From Mucilaginibacter ginsenosidivorax (GTDB taxonomy: Bacteria > Bacteroidota > Bacteroidia > Sphingobacteriales > Sphingobacteriaceae), in assembly GCF_007971525.1 (NCBI RefSeq), contig NZ_CP042437.1:6448001-6512000 (forward strand): 64,000 bases of DNA, read 5' to 3'. Under the pieces are notes generated by a model that searched no databases, was not told where the DNA came from, and worked only from the letters and a program-made list of their open reading frames with translations. Made by a program: the position numbers and the translations under genes. Below are positions 11,637-19,107 of the stretch, piece by piece (within the stretch, counting starts at the first letter, position 1; every line of letters begins with the position of its first letter).

Positions 11637-12068
11637 ATGAACGTAGTTCATAAAATTGAACATTGGGGCGATACACATCACCCTAAATTCCTTGATCTTG
11701 TACGTATTGCGCTCGGCGTATTTTTATTGCTAAAAGGAGTAGCCTTTATGGAAAACACTGCCTATCTGCGCGATCTGATCGAAAGCCAGGATGTTGTTGA
11801 TCTTTCGCCCGGCGTATTAATGGTTTTGGTTTATTACGTAACTTTCGCCCATATGATTGGCGGCATCCTGATAACACTTGGGATATTTACCCGGCTTGCA
11901 TCCATTTTTCAGATCCCTATTGTATTGGGTGCAGTGTTTTTAACAGGCATTTTCAAGGAACCCATAAATACATTGGAATGGCCGTCTGTAACCGCATTAA
12001 TCCTCCTGGTAATGTTCACCATTTTAGGTTCCGGCCCAATTTCGTTGGATAGGTACCTGGAAGGATAA
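11637..12068 (+). CDS. DoxX family membrane protein
   Basis: The 143-residue protein has four hydrophobic helices in the DoxX arrangement. The first contains LVRIALGVFLLLKGVAFM. The second holds YYVTFAHMIGGILITLG, with the family His-Met-x-Gly-Gly core. The last two pack near the C-terminus. DoxX-like proteins are small inner-membrane proteins linked to redox or quinone chemistry in some species; no specific partner is nearby. It is one of the few genes here with a strong Shine-Dalgarno sequence. The IS element lies just downstream. Confidence 0.85.
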   Translation: MNVVHKIEHWGDTHHPKFLDLVRIALGVFLLLKGVAFMENTAYLRDLIESQDVVDLSPGVLMVLVYYVTFAHMIGGILITLGIFTRLASIFQIPIVLGAVFLTGIFKEPINTLEWPSVTALILLVMFTILGSGPISLDRYLEG

Positions 12069-12266: not shown

Positions 12267-13477
12267 ATGCCCAAAGATAATTTTTTTAGCGGACAGCCGG
12301 TATTCGCACAATTGCTTAGTTTGATCCCCCGCCATATTGTTTCAAAGCAAAGCCAAAAGTATTCTGCCGATAGGTATTGTAAGTCATTCATGAGTTACGA
12401 CCACTTGGTCACGATGCTCTACCAAGGCTTTTTCCAATGCCTTTCCCTGCGTGAATTGGTTACGGGGTTACAGGCGAACCGAAGCAGGCTTCTCCATCTG
12501 GGGTTGACCAATACCCCACGCAGGAGCACGCTGTCGGATGCCAATAGCAGGCGCCCGGCTGATTTCTTCGCGGCGGCCTATCATCAACTGTACAGATATT
12601 TCTACGGAAGTTTACCGGACAGCCGCCCTTCGCTTAAGAAGCTTTTCATTATCGATTCGACCACGATCTCCCTTTTCTCGAATATTATGGGCGGTGCAGG
12701 TATGTCGAAAAGCAATGGCAAAAGGAAAGGCGGGATAAAAGCCCACGTAATGATCGATGCGGAACATAATTTGCCCTGTTTTACCTTACTTACGGAAGCC
12801 AGGCACCACGACCTTGTATTCCTGCAGGAAGTACAGGTACCGCCAGGCTCTATAGTCGTCTTTGACCGGGCTTATACCAATTATAAACAATTCGAGGCGT
12901 GGGGCGCACAGGGCATTGCCTGGGTTACCCGGCAGAAGAATGATGCAAACTACCAGTTGTTGTCCGAATCCCCTGTTTCTACCTATTCATCCGAACAGGG
13001 GGTAATAGCTGACCAGTCCCTGCTGTTGGACGGCATAGCAACAGGCGCAAAGTATCCCTTATCCGGGCCCGCAGGGTCGTTTTTAAGGACCCTGCCACCC
13101 AGAAAGAGCTCGCGTTCATTACCAACGAGCCCACTCTTGCGCCCGAACAGATCGCTGCTTTGTATAAAAAACGGTGGCAGATAGAATTACTGTTCAAACG
13201 CATCAAGCAGCGATACCCGTTGAGGTACTTTTTGGGGGATAATGTCAATGCTATCCAAATACAGGTCTGGTCTATGCTGATATGCGACCTCCTTGTCCAG
13301 ATCGTCCTTTCCCAAGTCAACAAAGCCGGCAAACGGAAATGGTCTTACGCTAACTTAGCAGCTATGGTCAAGCATCACCTGATGACCTATATCAACCTGA
13401 TGGCTTTCCTTTTTGACCCAGAGAAAGCCTTGTTGAACTACAAGCCGCCTGAACCAACTGCGGCTACGCTTTTCTAA
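12267..13477 (+). pseudogene. IS4-family DDE transposase, split by a -1 frameshift
   Basis: The first part (12267 onward) has an N-terminal DUF4372-like domain (FSGQPVFAQLLSLIP, YDHLVTMLYQGFFQCLSLRE, RRSTLSDAN). It also has the first two catalytic Asp sites, FIIDSTTISLFS and VVFDRAYTNYKQF. The third, YKKRWQIELLFKRIK, has the Y-2-R-3-E-6-K signature and lies in the -1 frame and runs to 13477. The frames join naturally at TAT CCC TTA (13053-13061). One extra C there would give KYPLIRARRVVFKD, the usual family sequence, so a 1-base loss from a C run is likely. Without recoding the product is cut at 13184. Joined length would be about 403 residues, normal for the family. Confidence 0.85.
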
Positions 13478-13587: not shown

Positions 13588-13863
13588 CTAATACCCCTTC
13601 ACTGCGTCATCCACATAGCACCATAGCCATCTTTCGCCAGGCTCGGCCGATATTACTACCGGGTGGCCGGTGGCTTCAAAATGTTTGGTCATGTGGGTAT
13701 TGGGCGAACTATCGCAGCATAGTGTTACGCCGCAGGTTTGGCAGGTGCGCAGGTGCATCCATGATGAATGTGTTTTAATGCACTCTTCGCACAGGTAATC
13801 CTTGGGTTGTTTAATATCGGTAATTGCCGCCAGGTGCTGGCATATTTCGTCGTCGTTTTGCAT
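13588..13863 (-). CDS. UBP-type zinc finger protein
   Basis: This 91-residue protein is essentially a single ZnF-UBP domain. CQHL starts it, followed by CEECIKTHSSWMHLRTCQTCG, CC, and H-T-KHFEATGHPVVIS, with closing GERWLWCYVDD. In eukaryotes the fold binds the free C-terminal tail of ubiquitin; in bacteria its ligand is unknown. It starts 9 bases after the stop of the receiver-flavoprotein gene, so the two are surely co-transcribed. It is the last gene of the minus-strand signalling block, and the IS element ends 18 bases beyond it. Confidence 0.9.
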   Translation of the reverse strand: MQNDDEICQHLAAITDIKQPKDYLCEECIKTHSSWMHLRTCQTCGVTLCCDSSPNTHMTKHFEATGHPVVISAEPGERWLWCYVDDAVKGY

Positions 13864-13872
13864 ATGGTGTTG

Positions 13873-15534
13873 TTAAACTTCAGCTAAATATTTGTGAACA
13901 AAACTAATGGCCATTGAGCCTTCGCCCACGGCAGATGCTACCCGGTTCATGGCCCCGGCGCGTACATCGCCGGCAGCAAAAATGCCCGAGCAGCTGGTTT
14001 CCAGTAAAAATGGATCGCGCTTAAGTTTCCACACTTTGTTAAAGCTTTCGTAGCTGCGCAGCTCGCGGCCGGTTTCTATAAAATCCTTATTGTTTTTTAT
14101 AATGTCAAGCTTAATCCAGTCGGTATACGGTTTGGCGCCTATAAAAATGTACAAGGCAGCAGCCTTATTAGTAAAAGTTTCTTGCGTTATGCAGTTTTTT
14201 AAGGTTAATTTTTCCAGGCAGTTACCACCGTGTGCTTCTACAATTTCTGTATTGCCCAGCACTTCAATGTTGGGCGTTTCGCTGATTTGTGTAATCAAAT
14301 AGGCCGACATGGTTGCCACCAAATCTTCGCGCCTGATCACGATATGCACTTTGGTGGCATATTTTGAAAGGTGCATGGCCGCCTGCCCGGCAGAGTTGCC
14401 GCCGCCAATTACGTACACATCTTTACCTGTACAGGCCGAAGCCTCAGTAGTGGCAGCGCCATAGTAAATGCCTGCGCCTGTAAAGTTTTCAACGCCTTTA
14501 ACTTCCAGTTTACGGTAATCAACGCCGGTAGTTATCACTACGGTACGGCTTATAATTTCGGGCCCGTCATCTAAAATAATGGTTTTGTAGCCGTCTTTTT
14601 GTTTGATATCACTAACCGATTGCGGCGATAAAAACTCGGCTCCCAAACGCATGGCTTGTGTAATGGCGCGGCGGGTAAGGTCGGCGCCGCTTAAGCCGGC
14701 CGGAAAACCCAGGTAGTTTTCAATCCTTGAGCTGGTGCCTGCCTGCCCGCCCGGAGCTTTACGCTCAATCAGCAAGGTTTTTAAACCTTCGGATGCGCCA
14801 TAAACTGCGGCTGCAAGGCCGGCGGGGCCAGCGCCTATAATCACCACATCATAAACATCGGTTAATGTTTGGGTGTTTTTTTCAAGCTTGGCGGCTATGC
14901 CTTGTATCGATGGTTTTTGCAGATAGCTGCCGTCCTCAAAAAATACCATCGGCAGGCAATCGGTAGATAGGTTGTTTAAAGCCAGCAGCGTTCCTGCATC
15001 TACATTTTTTTCGATATCAAGCCAGCGATAGGGGATAAGGTTACCGGCAAGGTAATCTTTTATCACGTGCGATTGCGGCGAAAACTGGTATCCAACCAGT
15101 TTAATGCCCACAAACTCAGGAATGTAACTGTTATGCCAGTCTGCCAGCAAATCATTTATTACCGGGTAAAGTTTTTCCTCCGGCGGGTCCCATGGTTTCA
15201 TGAGGTAATAATCCAGCTGGACGTCGTTAATGGCTTTAATAGCGGCCTCGGTATCGCTGTATGCAGTAAGTAACACCCGTTTGGCGTCAGGAAATACTTT
15301 TTTTGCTTTTTCTAAAAATTTAACGCCTTCCATTTCGGGCATGCGCTGGTCGCAAAGAAACAAGGCTACCACATCCGATCCATTTTTGAGTTCGGTAAGC
15401 GTTTCCAATGCTTCCTGGGCCGATGTTGTACTTAGTATTTTGTACTCTTTACTGTACTGAGATCGCAGGTCGCGGCTAATAGACCGTAGTACCTGCTGAT
15501 CATCATCAATTGAAAATATAATAGGTCGATTCAT
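13873..15534 (-). CDS. Response-regulator receiver fused to thioredoxin-reductase-like flavoprotein
   Basis: The ATG at 15534 gives MNRPIIFSIDDDQQ, a proper receiver start; the upstream ATG at 15603 adds an implausible tail. The 553 residues comprise three parts. First is a receiver domain (1-125; acidic pocket D10-D12, phospho-acceptor Asp62 in CDQRMPEM, Lys113 in LMKPWD). Second is a thioredoxin/glutaredoxin-like domain (about 140-220) whose active site reads SPQS instead of CxxC. Third is a two-dinucleotide-fold flavoprotein (229-553; GAGPAG for FAD, GGGNSAG for NAD(P)H, GIFAAGDVR). The CxxC of thioredoxin reductase is replaced by AATT around 360-363, so disulfide reduction as in TrxB is not expected. 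The kinase upstream is the likely phosphodonor and the UBP finger follows. The output is probably redox-enzymatic, not DNA-binding. Confidence 0.9.
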   Translation of the reverse strand: MNRPIIFSIDDDQQVLRSISRDLRSQYSKEYKILSTTSAQEALETLTELKNGSDVVALFLCDQRMPEMEGVKFLEKAKKVFPDAKRVLLTAYSDTEAAIKAINDVQLDYYLMKPWDPPEEKLYPVINDLLADWHNSYIPEFVGIKLVGYQFSPQSHVIKDYLAGNLIPYRWLDIEKNVDAGTLLALNNLSTDCLPMVFFEDGSYLQKPSIQGIAAKLEKNTQTLTDVYDVVIIGAGPAGLAAAVYGASEGLKTLLIERKAPGGQAGTSSRIENYLGFPAGLSGADLTRRAITQAMRLGAEFLSPQSVSDIKQKDGYKTIILDDGPEIISRTVVITTGVDYRKLEVKGVENFTGAGIYYGAATTEASACTGKDVYVIGGGNSAGQAAMHLSKYATKVHIVIRREDLVATMSAYLITQISETPNIEVLGNTEIVEAHGGNCLEKLTLKNCITQETFTNKAAALYIFIGAKPYTDWIKLDIIKNNKDFIETGRELRSYESFNKVWKLKRDPFLLETSCSGIFAAGDVRAGAMNRVASAVGEGSMAISFVHKYLAEV

Positions 15535-15564
15535 AGGGTTTGCTACAGGTAAATGATAAATGAG

Positions 15565-15700
15565 CGTCAAGATATTAGATTCAAGAATCAAGAGAGAAAA
15601 CAATGATAACCTAATCTAAACTTTTTTCAATAAAGAAACGGCCGACAGAATATTAACTCTTATGTTTTTGCTTGTCTTGATTACTATATCTTAACTTGAT
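15565..15700. repeat. Inverted-arm word repeat (tcaag/cttga words)
   Basis: AGATTCAAGAATCAAGAG near 15577 is answered by CTTGATTACTATATCTTAAC near 15675. The words resemble those of the element at 701-832. It sits between the kinase gene and the receiver-flavoprotein gene. Confidence 0.55.
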
Positions 15701-15730
15701 GTTTAATACTTCAAATAAAAAAATGTTTTA

Positions 15731-17131
15731 CTACCCGTCAATCAGGAAGCAAACACTAAATACGGTACAACCGGGTGTCGATTTTACTTTGATCGATCCA
15801 CGGTGTTGTTTTACAATCCGTTGTACTACTTCCAGTCCCATCCCGGTGCCTTTGCCCATCTCTTTGGTTGTAAAAAACGGATCGAAGATCTGACTTTGGA
15901 TATCTTCCGGAATACCGGGGCCATCGTCGATAATAAAAACTTCCACAAACTCGCGGTCGCGCCGGGTTTTAATGGTTAGGATGCCTTTGCCCGCCGGTTG
16001 CATGGCATCAAGGGCATTATCAATAAGGTTGGTCCAAACCTGGTTAAGTTCGCCAATCAGTGCTTTTACTTCGGGCAAAGTTCGGTCAAAATCTTCAACA
16101 ACGGTAATATTTCCTTTACGAATTTTATACCCCAGCATGGTAAGCGTGTTGGTAATACCAATATGGATATCGGCATACTGCTTATCCTGCCCGCGGTCCA
16201 TGTGTGTAAAAGTTTTAACAGAACTTACCAGTTCGGCTATCCGTTTGGATGATTCCTGTATATCCTGGATCATTTTCTCGGCTACCAGCTTATTGCTCAT
16301 CCAGTTGAAAATGGTTGATAAAAACTGCTTCGGGATATAGCTTTTCAACGCGTCGAGGTTTTCAACCTTAAAGTTAAAATCAACAAAGCTTTCGGCAATT
16401 TCGTAGCTGTTTTCTATTTCGTTTTCATCCAGCCATTCGCCAATTTCGTCTTCCCGGTGTGTACGTTGCTTCAGGCTCAGGCGGCCTTCATCTTTGGCGG
16501 TAAGCACTTTAAACATTTCATTGGTTACGCCATCAACCTGGTCCGAGTCCATTTTTATGGCAAACATACCTTTTATGGCTTCGGGAACCAGTTGCAGATG
16601 CTTGCTTAGGGACGTAGAATCGCGTACAATGGCCGATGCCGGGTTATTCAATTCGTGAGCCAGGCCTGCCGATAGTTTGCCCAGCGCCATCATTTTTTCG
16701 TTTTGCTGCTGCAAGGCTGTAAAATCGCGAACGCGGTTGGTCATGATGTGTACCAGTGCCTGGGTAAGCTCAAAATGATTTTTTATCATTTCGGTGATCC
16801 GTTCGGTGGGGAAGCTTAGTACCCGCAATTCGCCAATAGCTTCGGCAAAGCCCTTAGAAACCAGTCCGCGTGAAAACGGAAGGTATCCTGTTATATTTCC
16901 CGGCCCAACGGCAACAAAATCGCGGCGGCCACGGCTTTGCAGCATATAAAAACGCATGCTACCTTCAACAATAATATGTGGGCCGGTCATTGGCTTACCG
17001 GGCTCATTGAGCATGGTGCCATCTTCAAATGTATTGTATTCGCTATGATCTATCAGCCATTGCAGCTGATCATCCGGGACGTGCTCTAAAGCTTCGAGCG
17101 ATTTAAGCCAGGATACGGTTACCTCTTGCAT
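15731..17131 (-). CDS. Sensor histidine kinase with N-terminal cNMP-binding-like domain
   Basis: The protein has 466 residues and no membrane helices. Residues 1-130 form a CAP/cyclic-nucleotide-binding-like beta barrel (DGTMLNEPGKPMTGPHIIVEG). The DHp helix carries His159 in LSAGLAHELNNPASAI. The ATPase domain has an N box (NQVWTNLIDNALDAM, 363-377), G1 (DDGPGIPED, from 402) and GTGMGLEVV (428-436), all intact. It is thus a complete soluble kinase that could sense a small ligand or nucleotide. Its likely partner is the receiver-flavoprotein encoded 196 bases downstream on the same strand. A LytS/LytTR pair lies upstream. Confidence 0.9.
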   Translation of the reverse strand: MQEVTVSWLKSLEALEHVPDDQLQWLIDHSEYNTFEDGTMLNEPGKPMTGPHIIVEGSMRFYMLQSRGRRDFVAVGPGNITGYLPFSRGLVSKGFAEAIGELRVLSFPTERITEMIKNHFELTQALVHIMTNRVRDFTALQQQNEKMMALGKLSAGLAHELNNPASAIVRDSTSLSKHLQLVPEAIKGMFAIKMDSDQVDGVTNEMFKVLTAKDEGRLSLKQRTHREDEIGEWLDENEIENSYEIAESFVDFNFKVENLDALKSYIPKQFLSTIFNWMSNKLVAEKMIQDIQESSKRIAELVSSVKTFTHMDRGQDKQYADIHIGITNTLTMLGYKIRKGNITVVEDFDRTLPEVKALIGELNQVWTNLIDNALDAMQPAGKGILTIKTRRDREFVEVFIIDDGPGIPEDIQSQIFDPFFTTKEMGKGTGMGLEVVQRIVKQHRGSIKVKSTPGCTVFSVCFLIDG

Positions 17132-17284: not shown

Positions 17285-18040
17285 CTACACCCACTTACTC
17301 AAAAATACCCCGAAAGCATCTTTATACTGATCGCCAACGGTGATGTTTATTTTGCCAATTTGCAGGGCGTTGCGGGTAATGGAGTTTATTTTATCTAAAG
17401 ATACAATGAACGAGCGGTGCACCCGCATAAAACGTTTTGACGGCAGTTTTTCTTCCAGCGACTTTAAACTGGTGAGCGATAACAGGGCTTTCTCGGTGCC
17501 TTGCAGGTATATTTTAACATAATCTTTCAGGCCTTCTATATACAGAATATCCTTAAGCGCTATGCGTACCAGTTGATACTCTATTTTTAAAAACAGGTAG
17601 TCGTCTTCAATTCGATGTTCTTCGGGAGCCGCAGTTGCGGCGGGTGCAGGGTTGGTTGAGCGTTGTAACAGTTCGGCATAGCTTAATGCTTTGTTGGCGG
17701 CGTGCAAAAACTCTTCGTAATTAAAAGGCTTCAGCAGGTAATCCAATGCGTCAACTTTATAACCTTCAAGGGCAAACTGGTTGTAGGCCGTGGTAAAAAT
17801 AATGCGTGGCTTGTTGGCGCCCCGGCTATCCAGCACACGGGCCAGTTCGATGCCGTTAAGGTTAGGCATCTGTATATCCAAAAAAATAAGGTCAACCTTT
17901 TGGTCCTGTAAACCAACCAGCGCTTCAACCGCGCTGCTGTAGCGGCCTGTAAGTTTTAAAAATGGTGTTTGCTCAATAAATGCGCAAACCAGGCCAAGGG
18001 CCAGGGGTTCATCATCAACGGCAATACAGTTTAATATCAT
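17285..18040 (-). CDS. LytTR-family response regulator
   Basis: This 251-residue protein has a receiver domain (1-120; DDEP start, phospho-acceptor Asp55 in LIFLDIQMPNLNG, Lys in LLKPFNYEEF). A LytTR DNA-binding domain follows (about 150-250; DILYIEGLKDYVKIYL, KRFMRVHRSFIVSLDKI). It overlaps the upstream kinase gene by 4 bases (ATGA), so the two are translationally coupled and form one two-component system. The large outer-membrane receptor gene lies divergently behind the kinase and is a reasonable target, though this is inference. Confidence 0.95.
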   Translation of the reverse strand: MILNCIAVDDEPLALGLVCAFIEQTPFLKLTGRYSSAVEALVGLQDQKVDLIFLDIQMPNLNGIELARVLDSRGANKPRIIFTTAYNQFALEGYKVDALDYLLKPFNYEEFLHAANKALSYAELLQRSTNPAPAATAAPEEHRIEDDYLFLKIEYQLVRIALKDILYIEGLKDYVKIYLQGTEKALLSLTSLKSLEEKLPSKRFMRVHRSFIVSLDKINSITRNALQIGKINITVGDQYKDAFGVFLSKWV

Positions 18041-19107
18041 GACAGGTTGAGTGTTAAGTGAACTTTATAAGTATTGGCATCAGTGTCTTCGTTTATATCT
18101 AATGTGTATTTTTGGGCATACAACAAATCTAAACGCCGCAGGGTGTTGGTAAGGCCAATCCCTTTGTTTTCTTCCAGGTTGGGGTTGGCGTCTTTATAAA
18201 TCGAGTTTTCTACCCGTAATTCCAGTAAATCTGCGTTTTGTTCAACACTAATCAGGATGTCGCTGGGCAGCGTTGCGCTTATGCCATGTTTAAAAGCATT
18301 CTCCACAAAAGGTAAAAATATCATGGGGGCAACGGTCATATCGTTAACCGTGGCGGGCGAATTGAATGTAACCTTCACTTTATCGGTAAGCCGCAGTTCC
18401 ATCAGGCTGATGTAGTCTTTTATAAAGGCTATTTCCTGGCTTAGCAGTGCGGTACCATGTTGGGTATCATACAACACGTACCGCATCATCCGCGATAGCT
18501 GGTGAATTGCTTTGCGCGATGTTTCGGCATTGATATGTGTAAGCGCGTAAATGTTATTCAGCGTATTGAAAAAGAAATGCGGGTTGATCTGTGCTTTCAG
18601 GAAGGATAACTCCGAGCTGATCTTGTCCTGTTCTAAAGTTTCGCGCAGCCTGATATCGGCCTGCCACTTTTGGATGGCGGTGATGCTGGTGCTTATGCCT
18701 AATACCAATGCCATAATAAATATTACCGCATAGTCGAAGATCTTGTTCCGTTCGCCGTGTCTTGGCGGCCCGTGTTTATGGATAGCATTATCCATTAACA
18801 GGTGCATGTTCAATGAACGGTCGATGAAAATATTTAATAAGTAAATGACCGCTACCAGGGTAATTATAAATATGAAATACATGCCTGTCCGGTTTTTTAA
18901 CAGATATACCGGCACAAACACAATAGCGTTGATATAAAATGCAGTTACCAGCATAATGATAAACAATGCCTGTTTTATCCAGAACTGGTAGGGCAATACA
19001 ATATCCCACGTAAGGGGTTGATATAAAAATAACGCGAAGCCCAGCACTACCCATGTTAACACATGAATAAGGATAGTAATGGTACTGCTTTTTGATTTAA
19101 GGCTCAT
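18037..19107 (-). CDS. LytS-type sensor histidine kinase (four membrane helices)
   Basis: The 356 residues begin with four hydrophobic helices (about 10-28, 44-68, 77-96 and 124-144). A His_kinase family domain follows with LKAQINPHFFFNTLNNI (His177 as phospho-acceptor). The ATPase part has LPFVENAFKHGI and a GIGLTNTLRRL glycine box. No extracytoplasmic sensor domain is present, only short loops, one of them His/Pro-rich (HKHGPPRHGER). It pairs with the LytTR regulator whose start overlaps its stop. Confidence 0.93.
   Translation of the reverse strand: MSLKSKSSTITILIHVLTWVVLGFALFLYQPLTWDIVLPYQFWIKQALFIIMLVTAFYINAIVFVPVYLLKNRTGMYFIFIITLVAVIYLLNIFIDRSLNMHLLMDNAIHKHGPPRHGERNKIFDYAVIFIMALVLGISTSITAIQKWQADIRLRETLEQDKISSELSFLKAQINPHFFFNTLNNIYALTHINAETSRKAIHQLSRMMRYVLYDTQHGTALLSQEIAFIKDYISLMELRLTDKVKVTFNSPATVNDMTVAPMIFLPFVENAFKHGISATLPSDILISVEQNADLLELRVENSIYKDANPNLEENKGIGLTNTLRRLDLLYAQKYTLDINEDTDANTYKVHLTLNLS

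Follow-up and report, generated by a model that had tools for sequence, protein, structure and literature searches.

A conserved histidine kinase, cysteine-less receiver-flavoprotein fusion and UBP zinc finger in Mucilaginibacter ginsenosidivorax: a possible two-component system acting on redox chemistry and ion transport

We analysed a stretch of 64,000 nucleotides from Mucilaginibacter ginsenosidivorax (contig NZ_CP042437.1, positions 6,448,001 to 6,512,000), hereafter called the window, in whose own coordinates all positions are given. Three adjacent minus-strand genes of the window encode a soluble histidine kinase, a fusion of a receiver with a redoxin-like domain and a flavoprotein, and a UBP-type zinc finger protein. 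The host genome consists of one contig of 7.81 Mb. The set is widespread and known as annotations (PGAP names), its neighbourhood is conserved, and some relatives have a K+/H+ antiporter-like protein encoded beside it or fused to it, suggestive of a rapid stress response. We tentatively propose, as quite possible rather than probable, a two-component system that has no transcriptional output itself. In it, a phosphorelay would act on an NAD(P)H flavoprotein that lacks the usual cysteines, and the UBP protein would serve as adaptor, in some lineages to a redox-gated Kef-like K+/H+ antiporter. The three genes are:

Positions 15731 to 17131, minus strand: soluble histidine kinase, 466 amino acids (Pfam, conservation, AlphaFold model).
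Positions 13873 to 15534, minus strand: receiver/redoxin/flavoprotein fusion, 553 amino acids (Pfam, conservation, profile and structure matches).
Positions 13588 to 13863, minus strand: UBP-type zinc finger protein, 91 amino acids (zf-UBP Pfam match, match to 2ida).

All three frames are intact. Following the minus strand, the stop codon of the kinase at 15731 is separated by 196 bases from the ATG of the fusion at 15534, whose stop codon ends at 13873, and the ATG of the UBP gene lies at 13863, which confirms the spacing of 9 bases between fusion and UBP gene given in an initial annotation of this DNA. The mechanical open reading frame of the fusion opens at a TTG (15603); the ATG at 15534 is backed by aligned homologues, which begin with MxxPIIFSIDDD. 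The initial annotation also located His159 in the kinase and Asp62 and the motifs SPQS and AATT in the fusion correctly.

The conservation of the gene set was assessed in the best 80 of 529 matches to the fusion (close relatives, with flanks of up to 6 kb), in a phylum sample of 345 Bacteroidota genomes and in 101 genomes of the host family. In 74 of the 80 loci, a kinase gene with the same orientation was found at most 300 bases upstream; the six others comprise three contigs that begin less than 1 kb upstream and three loci without a kinase in 6 kb. The UBP gene followed at most 300 bases downstream in 47 loci, was elsewhere in the flank in 4 and was absent from the flank in 29. Across the phylum sample, the full fusion was present in 44 genomes (one copy cut by a contig end), a UBP gene over the cut-off in 32 and both in 26. 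The UBP gene thus occurred in 26/44 genomes with the fusion as opposed to 6/301 without it, and three of these six carry a receiver-less flavoprotein. The corresponding numbers in the host family were 15 (fusion), 17 (UBP) and 13 (both). Fisher's test on this co-occurrence, which ignores phylogeny, gave P=7e-22 for the phylum and P=3e-11 for the family. Within 6 kb of the fusion, the kinase was found in 42 of the 44 genomes and the UBP gene in 21. The recurrence of the three genes as neighbours, which the initial annotation had made its first check, therefore holds for the kinase with the fusion and, in fewer loci, for UBP.

Phyla outside Bacteroidota were sampled via plasmids only, where 11 records covered at least 80% of the fusion and eight were taken for loci (Cyanobacteriota, Pseudomonadota, Deinococcota and Actinomycetota). 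The kinase adjoined the fusion in 8/8 of these loci, and UBP in 3/8, all of them actinomycetotal. Chance juxtaposition of kinase, fusion and UBP is rejected by the co-occurrence in the family, the phylum, the plasmids and the 80 loci.

Some of these plasmid loci have further genes of note. In Caballeronia (L113, 3484-8062) the receiver-TrxB gene stands between two related kinases, one on each side. On cyanobacterial plasmids (L112, L150), glgX and a gene for an AGE-family epimerase precede the receiver-TrxB and kinase genes, and both Nostoc (L112) and Deinococcus (L114) have a gene for 'low temperature requirement protein A' close to the cluster. Genes for an MBL hydrolase and an S-(hydroxymethyl)mycothiol dehydrogenase, a thiol-dependent detoxification route, directly follow the receiver-TrxB, kinase and UBP genes of Tsukamurella (L115, 8559-10267).

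All residues expected of a two-component pair are present, namely the His, N-box and G-boxes of the kinase and the acidic pocket, Asp, Thr and Lys of the receiver. The kinase matched the Pfam families cNMP_binding (cyclic nucleotide monophosphate; residues 34-119, 30.7 bits, cut-off 27.5) and HATPase_c (86.9 bits, cut-off 26.4). HisKA was matched in part only (22.5 bits, under its cut-off of 26.9), and about 110 residues between helix 1 of the dimerization and histidine phosphotransfer (DHp) domain and the remainder were left uncovered. The protein begins with a Crp/cNMP-like domain (residues 1 to about 119), followed by the first DHp helix, which carries His159, a helical insert (184-263, about 80 residues), the second DHp helix (268-311) and a HATPase domain (361-459). 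An AlphaFold model (predicted local distance difference test, pLDDT, 78; predicted template modelling score, pTM, 0.42) places DHp helix 1 within 120-180 and lets the insert fill the Pfam gap before helix 2, with a pLDDT of 50-77 in the first part of the insert and 83-89 in the second. An alignment of 138 kinases, eight of which are from Nostoc, Gloeothece, Caballeronia, Deinococcus, Tsukamurella, Streptomyces, Nonomuraea and Nocardia records, shows 97-100% conservation of His159, of N372 and of the glycines at the ATP site.

The insert itself is conserved at E227 (98%) and W233 (94%), and a stretch like DREDELxxWL recurs across members of several phyla. The best Foldseek matches of the model were histidine kinase structures and were uninformative on the insert. 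The tip of the DHp hairpin is near the docking place of response regulators, and an insert at this tip may read the redoxin-flavoprotein part of the partner. At the other end of the kinase, the cNMP-like pocket region reads ITGYLPFSRG. The phosphate-binding cassette of cyclic-nucleotide domains has a canonical Glu/Arg motif. Because the region in the kinase has conserved residues of its own (G82, P85, S87 and R88), no cyclic-nucleotide ligand is to be assumed.

In the fusion, Pfam recognised Response_reg (6-118, 56.4 bits, cut-off 30.2) and Pyr_redox_2 (228-539, 112.2 bits, cut-off 26.1). The domains are a receiver (1-130, with Asp62), a redoxin domain (about 138-222, with SPQS at 152-155) and a TrxB-like flavin adenine dinucleotide (FAD)/NAD(P)H flavoprotein (226-553, with AATT at 360-363). 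D10-D12, D62, T90 and K113 of the receiver are invariant in 43 sequences. Pfam found no DNA-binding domain in the fusion, as the initial annotation had observed. The structural model of the fusion is weak (pLDDT 71.7, pTM 0.44; residues 260-270 and 523-553 mostly below 50) and we therefore claim no active-site geometry.

The flavoprotein part (220-553) structurally matched TrxB and AhpF with a Z-score of about 25. Since this comparison spans only 220-553, the redoxin domain was assigned from a sequence profile. This profile, built from 26 homologues, matched mycoredoxin 2lqo (E=3.5e-9) and also glutaredoxins and glutathione S-transferases. The Pfam Glutaredoxin family scored 27.5 (cut-off 22.9) with one of four homologue fragments, from Nostoc, and 20.4 with another; two gave no match, and the isolated middle domain of the window's own protein had no Pfam match at E 0.1. 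By its profile, the middle domain is glutaredoxin/mycoredoxin-like. This refines the initial annotation, which recognised the receiver and the TrxB-like part of the fusion and called the domain between them thioredoxin-like.

Both redox domains lack the expected cysteines. The alignment of the fusion family held 161 sequences, 144 receiver-bearing and 17 receiver-less. In the receiver-bearing relatives, position 152 is Ser in 144/144, 153 is Pro in 128, and 155 is Ser in 128 and Cys in 1; Pro195, the expected cis-Pro, is kept in 161/161. At the TrxB positions 360 and 363, Cys occurs in 0/161 relatives. The adjacent Glu364 is present in 144/144 receiver-bearing and 15/17 receiver-less proteins, and a Cys at 368 is frequent (115/144) yet not fixed. 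The FAD motif GGQAG..SRIENYLGF and the NAD(P)H motif GGGNSAGQ are retained, with GGQ in 161/161 and GxxNSAGQ near-invariant. As Ser152, Pro195, Glu364 and both dinucleotide-binding motifs (FAD, NAD(P)H) are retained and Cys never occurs at 360 or 363, we conclude that the family is old, cysteine-less and constrained, and not a decayed TrxB. A recent cysteine loss in this strain is rejected, because none of the 161 relatives has Cys at 360 or 363; what had been described as lost cysteines are indeed absent at both sites, as a property of the family. The fusion scored 231.8 bits with the TrxB model TIGR01292 of NCBIfam, under the cut-off of 343.45, and an ordinary TrxB with CAVC is encoded elsewhere in the host genome. 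A role as standard thioredoxin reductase is rejected, given the absence of the TrxB cysteines from all 161 relatives and the ordinary TrxB elsewhere, as the initial annotation had already argued from the sequence.

The UBP protein matched zf-UBP with 48.7 bits (cut-off 22.7). The structure of a bacterial relative has been solved (2ida, E=2.4e-26), and its entry calls the protein hypothetical. The Cys/His ligand-type pattern is 98-100% conserved among 126 UBP relatives, which share the bacterial signature W-x-H-L-R-x-C-x-x-C-G-x-x-x-C-C-D-x-S. The Arg of the CGR motif of HDAC6 holds the C-terminal glycine of ubiquitin. This CGR aligns, with a gap, to CCD in the window's protein; the Arg is not conserved and a conserved CDxS is found instead (D51 98%, S53 100%). 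We know of no assigned function of bacterial UBP fingers. In five loci of the window's genus (L122, L127, L130, L132 and L133), a UBP gene lying apart from the fusion adjoins a gene for a radical-SAM protein with a helix-hairpin-helix end.

A candidate target, absent from the initial annotation, emerged from the neighbourhood of the fusion in the phylum sample. Of the 44 loci, 21 encode an antiporter of the Na_H_Exchanger family (CPA2) no more than 6 kb from the fusion, where 0.40 would be expected from 122 antiporter genes in 188 Mb. Chance neighbourhood is rejected by these numbers, though the loci are clustered: one family contributes 16/16, and outside that family the count is 5/28 (0.25 expected), L223 having the antiporter on the opposite strand. 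The antiporter was present in 18/21 fusion loci with UBP nearby as opposed to 3/23 without it (Fisher's test, phylogeny ignored, P=2e-6). In three loci (L221, L225, L228), a single open reading frame beside kinase and fusion encodes Na_H_Exchanger, TrkA_N and zf-UBP domains together. A joined antiporter-UBP frame also occurs in L239, with no fusion in the 12 kb covered, and on two Deinococcus plasmids; an antiporter-UBP protein is on record for Deinococcus ficus. KefC is the best of the nearest NCBIfam names for the fused proteins, the others being YbaL and KefB, all below cut-off. In one further genome (G325) a partial UBP match and an antiporter lie 2.2 kb apart on a contig different from that of the fusion, and in another (G021; L123, 2174-3184) a gene for a K_trans (KUP-type) potassium transporter follows UBP, with a receiver-less flavoprotein elsewhere in the genome. 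We found no literature report of a UBP-antiporter link, subscription journals being mostly outside our reach.

The 16 loci of the antiporter-rich family contain a VOC dioxygenase-like gene in 11, an Abhydrolase_2 esterase gene in 12, the antiporter in 16, a DsbA-like gene in 11, UBP in 14 and the kinase in 16. In the six loci displayed, these cluster genes lie on the same strand as the fusion, not every gene being present in each, and the DsbA-like protein of displayed members reads CPYS. The VOC and Abhydrolase_2 pair also occurs near the fusion in relatives within the host's family (L070, L073, L248). The quinone-induced mhqE and mhqD belong to the same two protein families, a likeness at family level (PMC6798810).

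Taken together, these results are consistent with the following scheme. The cytoplasmic kinase would phosphorylate Asp62 of the receiver, which would alter the interactions of the flavoprotein or the way in which it uses NAD(P)H to reduce an acceptor other than a disulfide; quinone-type electrophiles are the best guess for this acceptor. The UBP finger could then act as an adaptor that passes the state of the flavoprotein to a target. Comparison best supports a Kef-like CPA2 K+/H+ antiporter as this target, analogous to KefF acting on KefC, and the purpose might be rapid protection against electrophile or redox stress. In the host genome the set has no antiporter next to it; the target would therefore be an antiporter encoded elsewhere, or UBP would have another target. 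A stricter version seems to us unlikely as a whole. It holds that the phosphorelay gates a Kef-like antiporter through flavoprotein and UBP with no gene regulation in between, that UBP is a redox adaptor, and that the receiver and cNMP versions are interchangeable sensors on an ancient core.

Several observations weigh against the proposed scheme. The fold of KefF differs. The best kinase match is 8.7 kb away from the fusion on plasmid H2 and about 220 kb away on plasmid H5, and the kinase is not nearby in 2/44 genomes and in three of the 80 flanks of 6 kb. UBP cannot be essential everywhere, because 18/44 fusion genomes have no UBP over the cut-off; of 10 short loci where it stands apart from the fusion, 5, all of the window's genus, have the radical-SAM neighbour, and no antiporter was recognised. 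In none of the 80 close relatives did the flanks (up to 6 kb) contain an antiporter relative, 23/44 fusion loci have no antiporter nearby, and none of the host genome's 5 PF00999 genes is in the window. The number of independent events is small, because 16/21 antiporter loci and 11/14 dioxygenase-like/esterase pairs come from one family. Relatives of the cNMP type stand in ClpB/TrxA operons, which points to proteostasis. The enzyme activity of KefF was dispensable for KefC activation, as stated in the part of PMC10224563 available to us.

Calling the flavoprotein an output might also be wrong. It could be a redox input, whose FAD or NAD(P)H occupancy reports the redox state while receiver contact tunes the kinase towards other regulators and UBP titrates or stabilises the flavoprotein. 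A soluble kinase whose cNMP-like pocket region has conserved residues of its own would suit this, as would the receiver-less relatives: in 7/7 long ones scanned, a cNMP-binding domain occupies the N-terminus, the receiver's position, forming a sensor-flavoprotein unit. Because several of them also lie beside UBP, they suggest a flavoprotein core with exchangeable sensor domains. Other regulators are close by as well. A LytTR response regulator and a LytS-type kinase (17285-19107, minus strand) precede the set in the window, relatives of both are nearby in 11/80 loci, and response-regulator clusters occur in 8 to 14 of 140 loci. However, no single other regulator accompanies the set beyond a small share of loci, and the receiver keeps its catalytic residues, as expected of a phosphoacceptor; we consider a role as input rather unlikely. 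Another alternative is that the fusion is a reductase of quinones or electrophiles which uses NAD(P)H, is regulated by phosphorylation and performs the detoxification itself, antiporter and UBP being just co-regulated companions. Cysteine-less enzymes of the TrxB fold that reduce ferredoxin or flavodoxin are known, and the esterase (12/16) and dioxygenase-like (11/16) genes described above, with the pair recurring in three loci of the host's family, also speak for it. This explanation leaves the antiporter-UBP fusions and the conserved redoxin domain, with Ser152 and Pro195 fixed, unaccounted for, and appears improbable to us.

The least probable of the explanations, which we regard as highly doubtful, is that UBP is a proteostasis adaptor that binds exposed termini or damaged proteins, the flavoprotein helping a machinery of the ClpB/DnaJ type under redox stress. 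It draws on plasmid loci of Streptomyces (L117) and Rhodococcus (L118). In both, genes for UBP and a cNMP-type TrxB without the cysteines come after chaperone-type genes on one strand, which are cbpM-clpB-trxA in Streptomyces and dnaJ-cbpM-clpB-trxA in Rhodococcus. In Paraburkholderia, a Clp ATPase gene on the opposite strand adjoins UBP. By contrast, no chaperone was recognised by eye in the 45 displayed neighbour clusters of receiver-bearing and receiver-less Bacteroidota loci, for which no chaperone family search was made, and the replacement of the HDAC6 CGR Arg by the conserved CDxS in bacterial UBP speaks against this role. Separately, the TrxB-like gene beside UBP appears in two pieces in Rhizobium ruizarguesonis (L148, 3295-5023) and Hymenobacter volaticus (L141, 3265-4116) and not so in Agrobacterium (L149).

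Beyond the three genes, the window contains a convergent neighbour of the set, which is a candidate partner only:

Positions 11637 to 12068, plus strand: DoxX-family membrane protein (PF07681, 41.7 bits).

In 24/80 related loci, as in the window, the fusion has a DoxX relative downstream of it, encoded on the opposite strand. Between DoxX and UBP the window carries an insertion sequence (12267-13477, plus strand; DUF4372 and DDE transposase, two overlapping frames), and in the near-identical relative L032 the gap corresponding to this site is only about 106 bases. Fusions 87-100% identical to that of the window occur in Mucilaginibacter records. A contig labelled Williamsia, an actinobacterium (L078), has a fusion 76% identical to the window's and is probably a mislabelled Bacteroidota bin.

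Receiver-TrxB fusions are currently annotated without function. The antiporter-UBP fusions allow a concrete proposal, a two-component system that would act on redox chemistry and ion transport and not on transcription. If it is true, bacterial UBP fingers would gain a first biochemical role, as redox adaptors rather than ubiquitin readers. The cysteine-less redoxin/flavoprotein pair, seen in at least five phyla, would be a family of its own and not a 'thioredoxin-disulfide reductase'.

The UBP protein belongs to the same finger family as 2ida. With mycoredoxin/glutaredoxin 2lqo the fusion shares a sequence profile, a redoxin-like secondary structure and the cis-Pro position P195, whereas the CxxC is replaced by SPxS in the fusion family. 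AhpF has a redoxin-fold N-terminus. The fold and both dinucleotide-binding motifs of TrxB (TIGR01292) and AhpF are common to the flavoprotein part, but the fusion is without redox cysteines, scores below the TIGR01292 cut-off, and has an added receiver and a cysteine-less redoxin domain. The cNMP-binding proteins that PGAP names 'thioredoxin-disulfide reductase' have the same redoxin-TrxB core without TrxB cysteines and adjoin UBP in several loci; they differ in having no receiver and stand in a ClpB-TrxA operon on two plasmids, not in Deinococcus grandis. A receiver and TrxB-like combination ('Mycobacterium-like' REC-thioredoxin reductase) is mentioned in an archaeal census (PMC5847659), whose available part gives no function and no analysis of kinase, UBP, cysteines or antiporter; beyond this mention, we recognised nothing relevant in the literature on bacterial UBP and receiver-TrxB function. 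KefC/KefF and KefB/KefG likewise combine a CPA2 antiporter bearing a KTN/TrkA_N domain with an accessory flavoprotein reductase, and KefF, a quinone reductase of flavoprotein type, binds the regulatory domain of KefC and is needed for full activation under electrophile stress (PMC10224563). Unlike in Kef, the present flavoprotein is TrxB-like and joined to a receiver, UBP is found at the antiporter C-terminus, and the host genome has no antiporter adjacent to the set. KefC with KefF is the closest working analogy; the set would work in this manner if the proposal holds, without being a member of that family.

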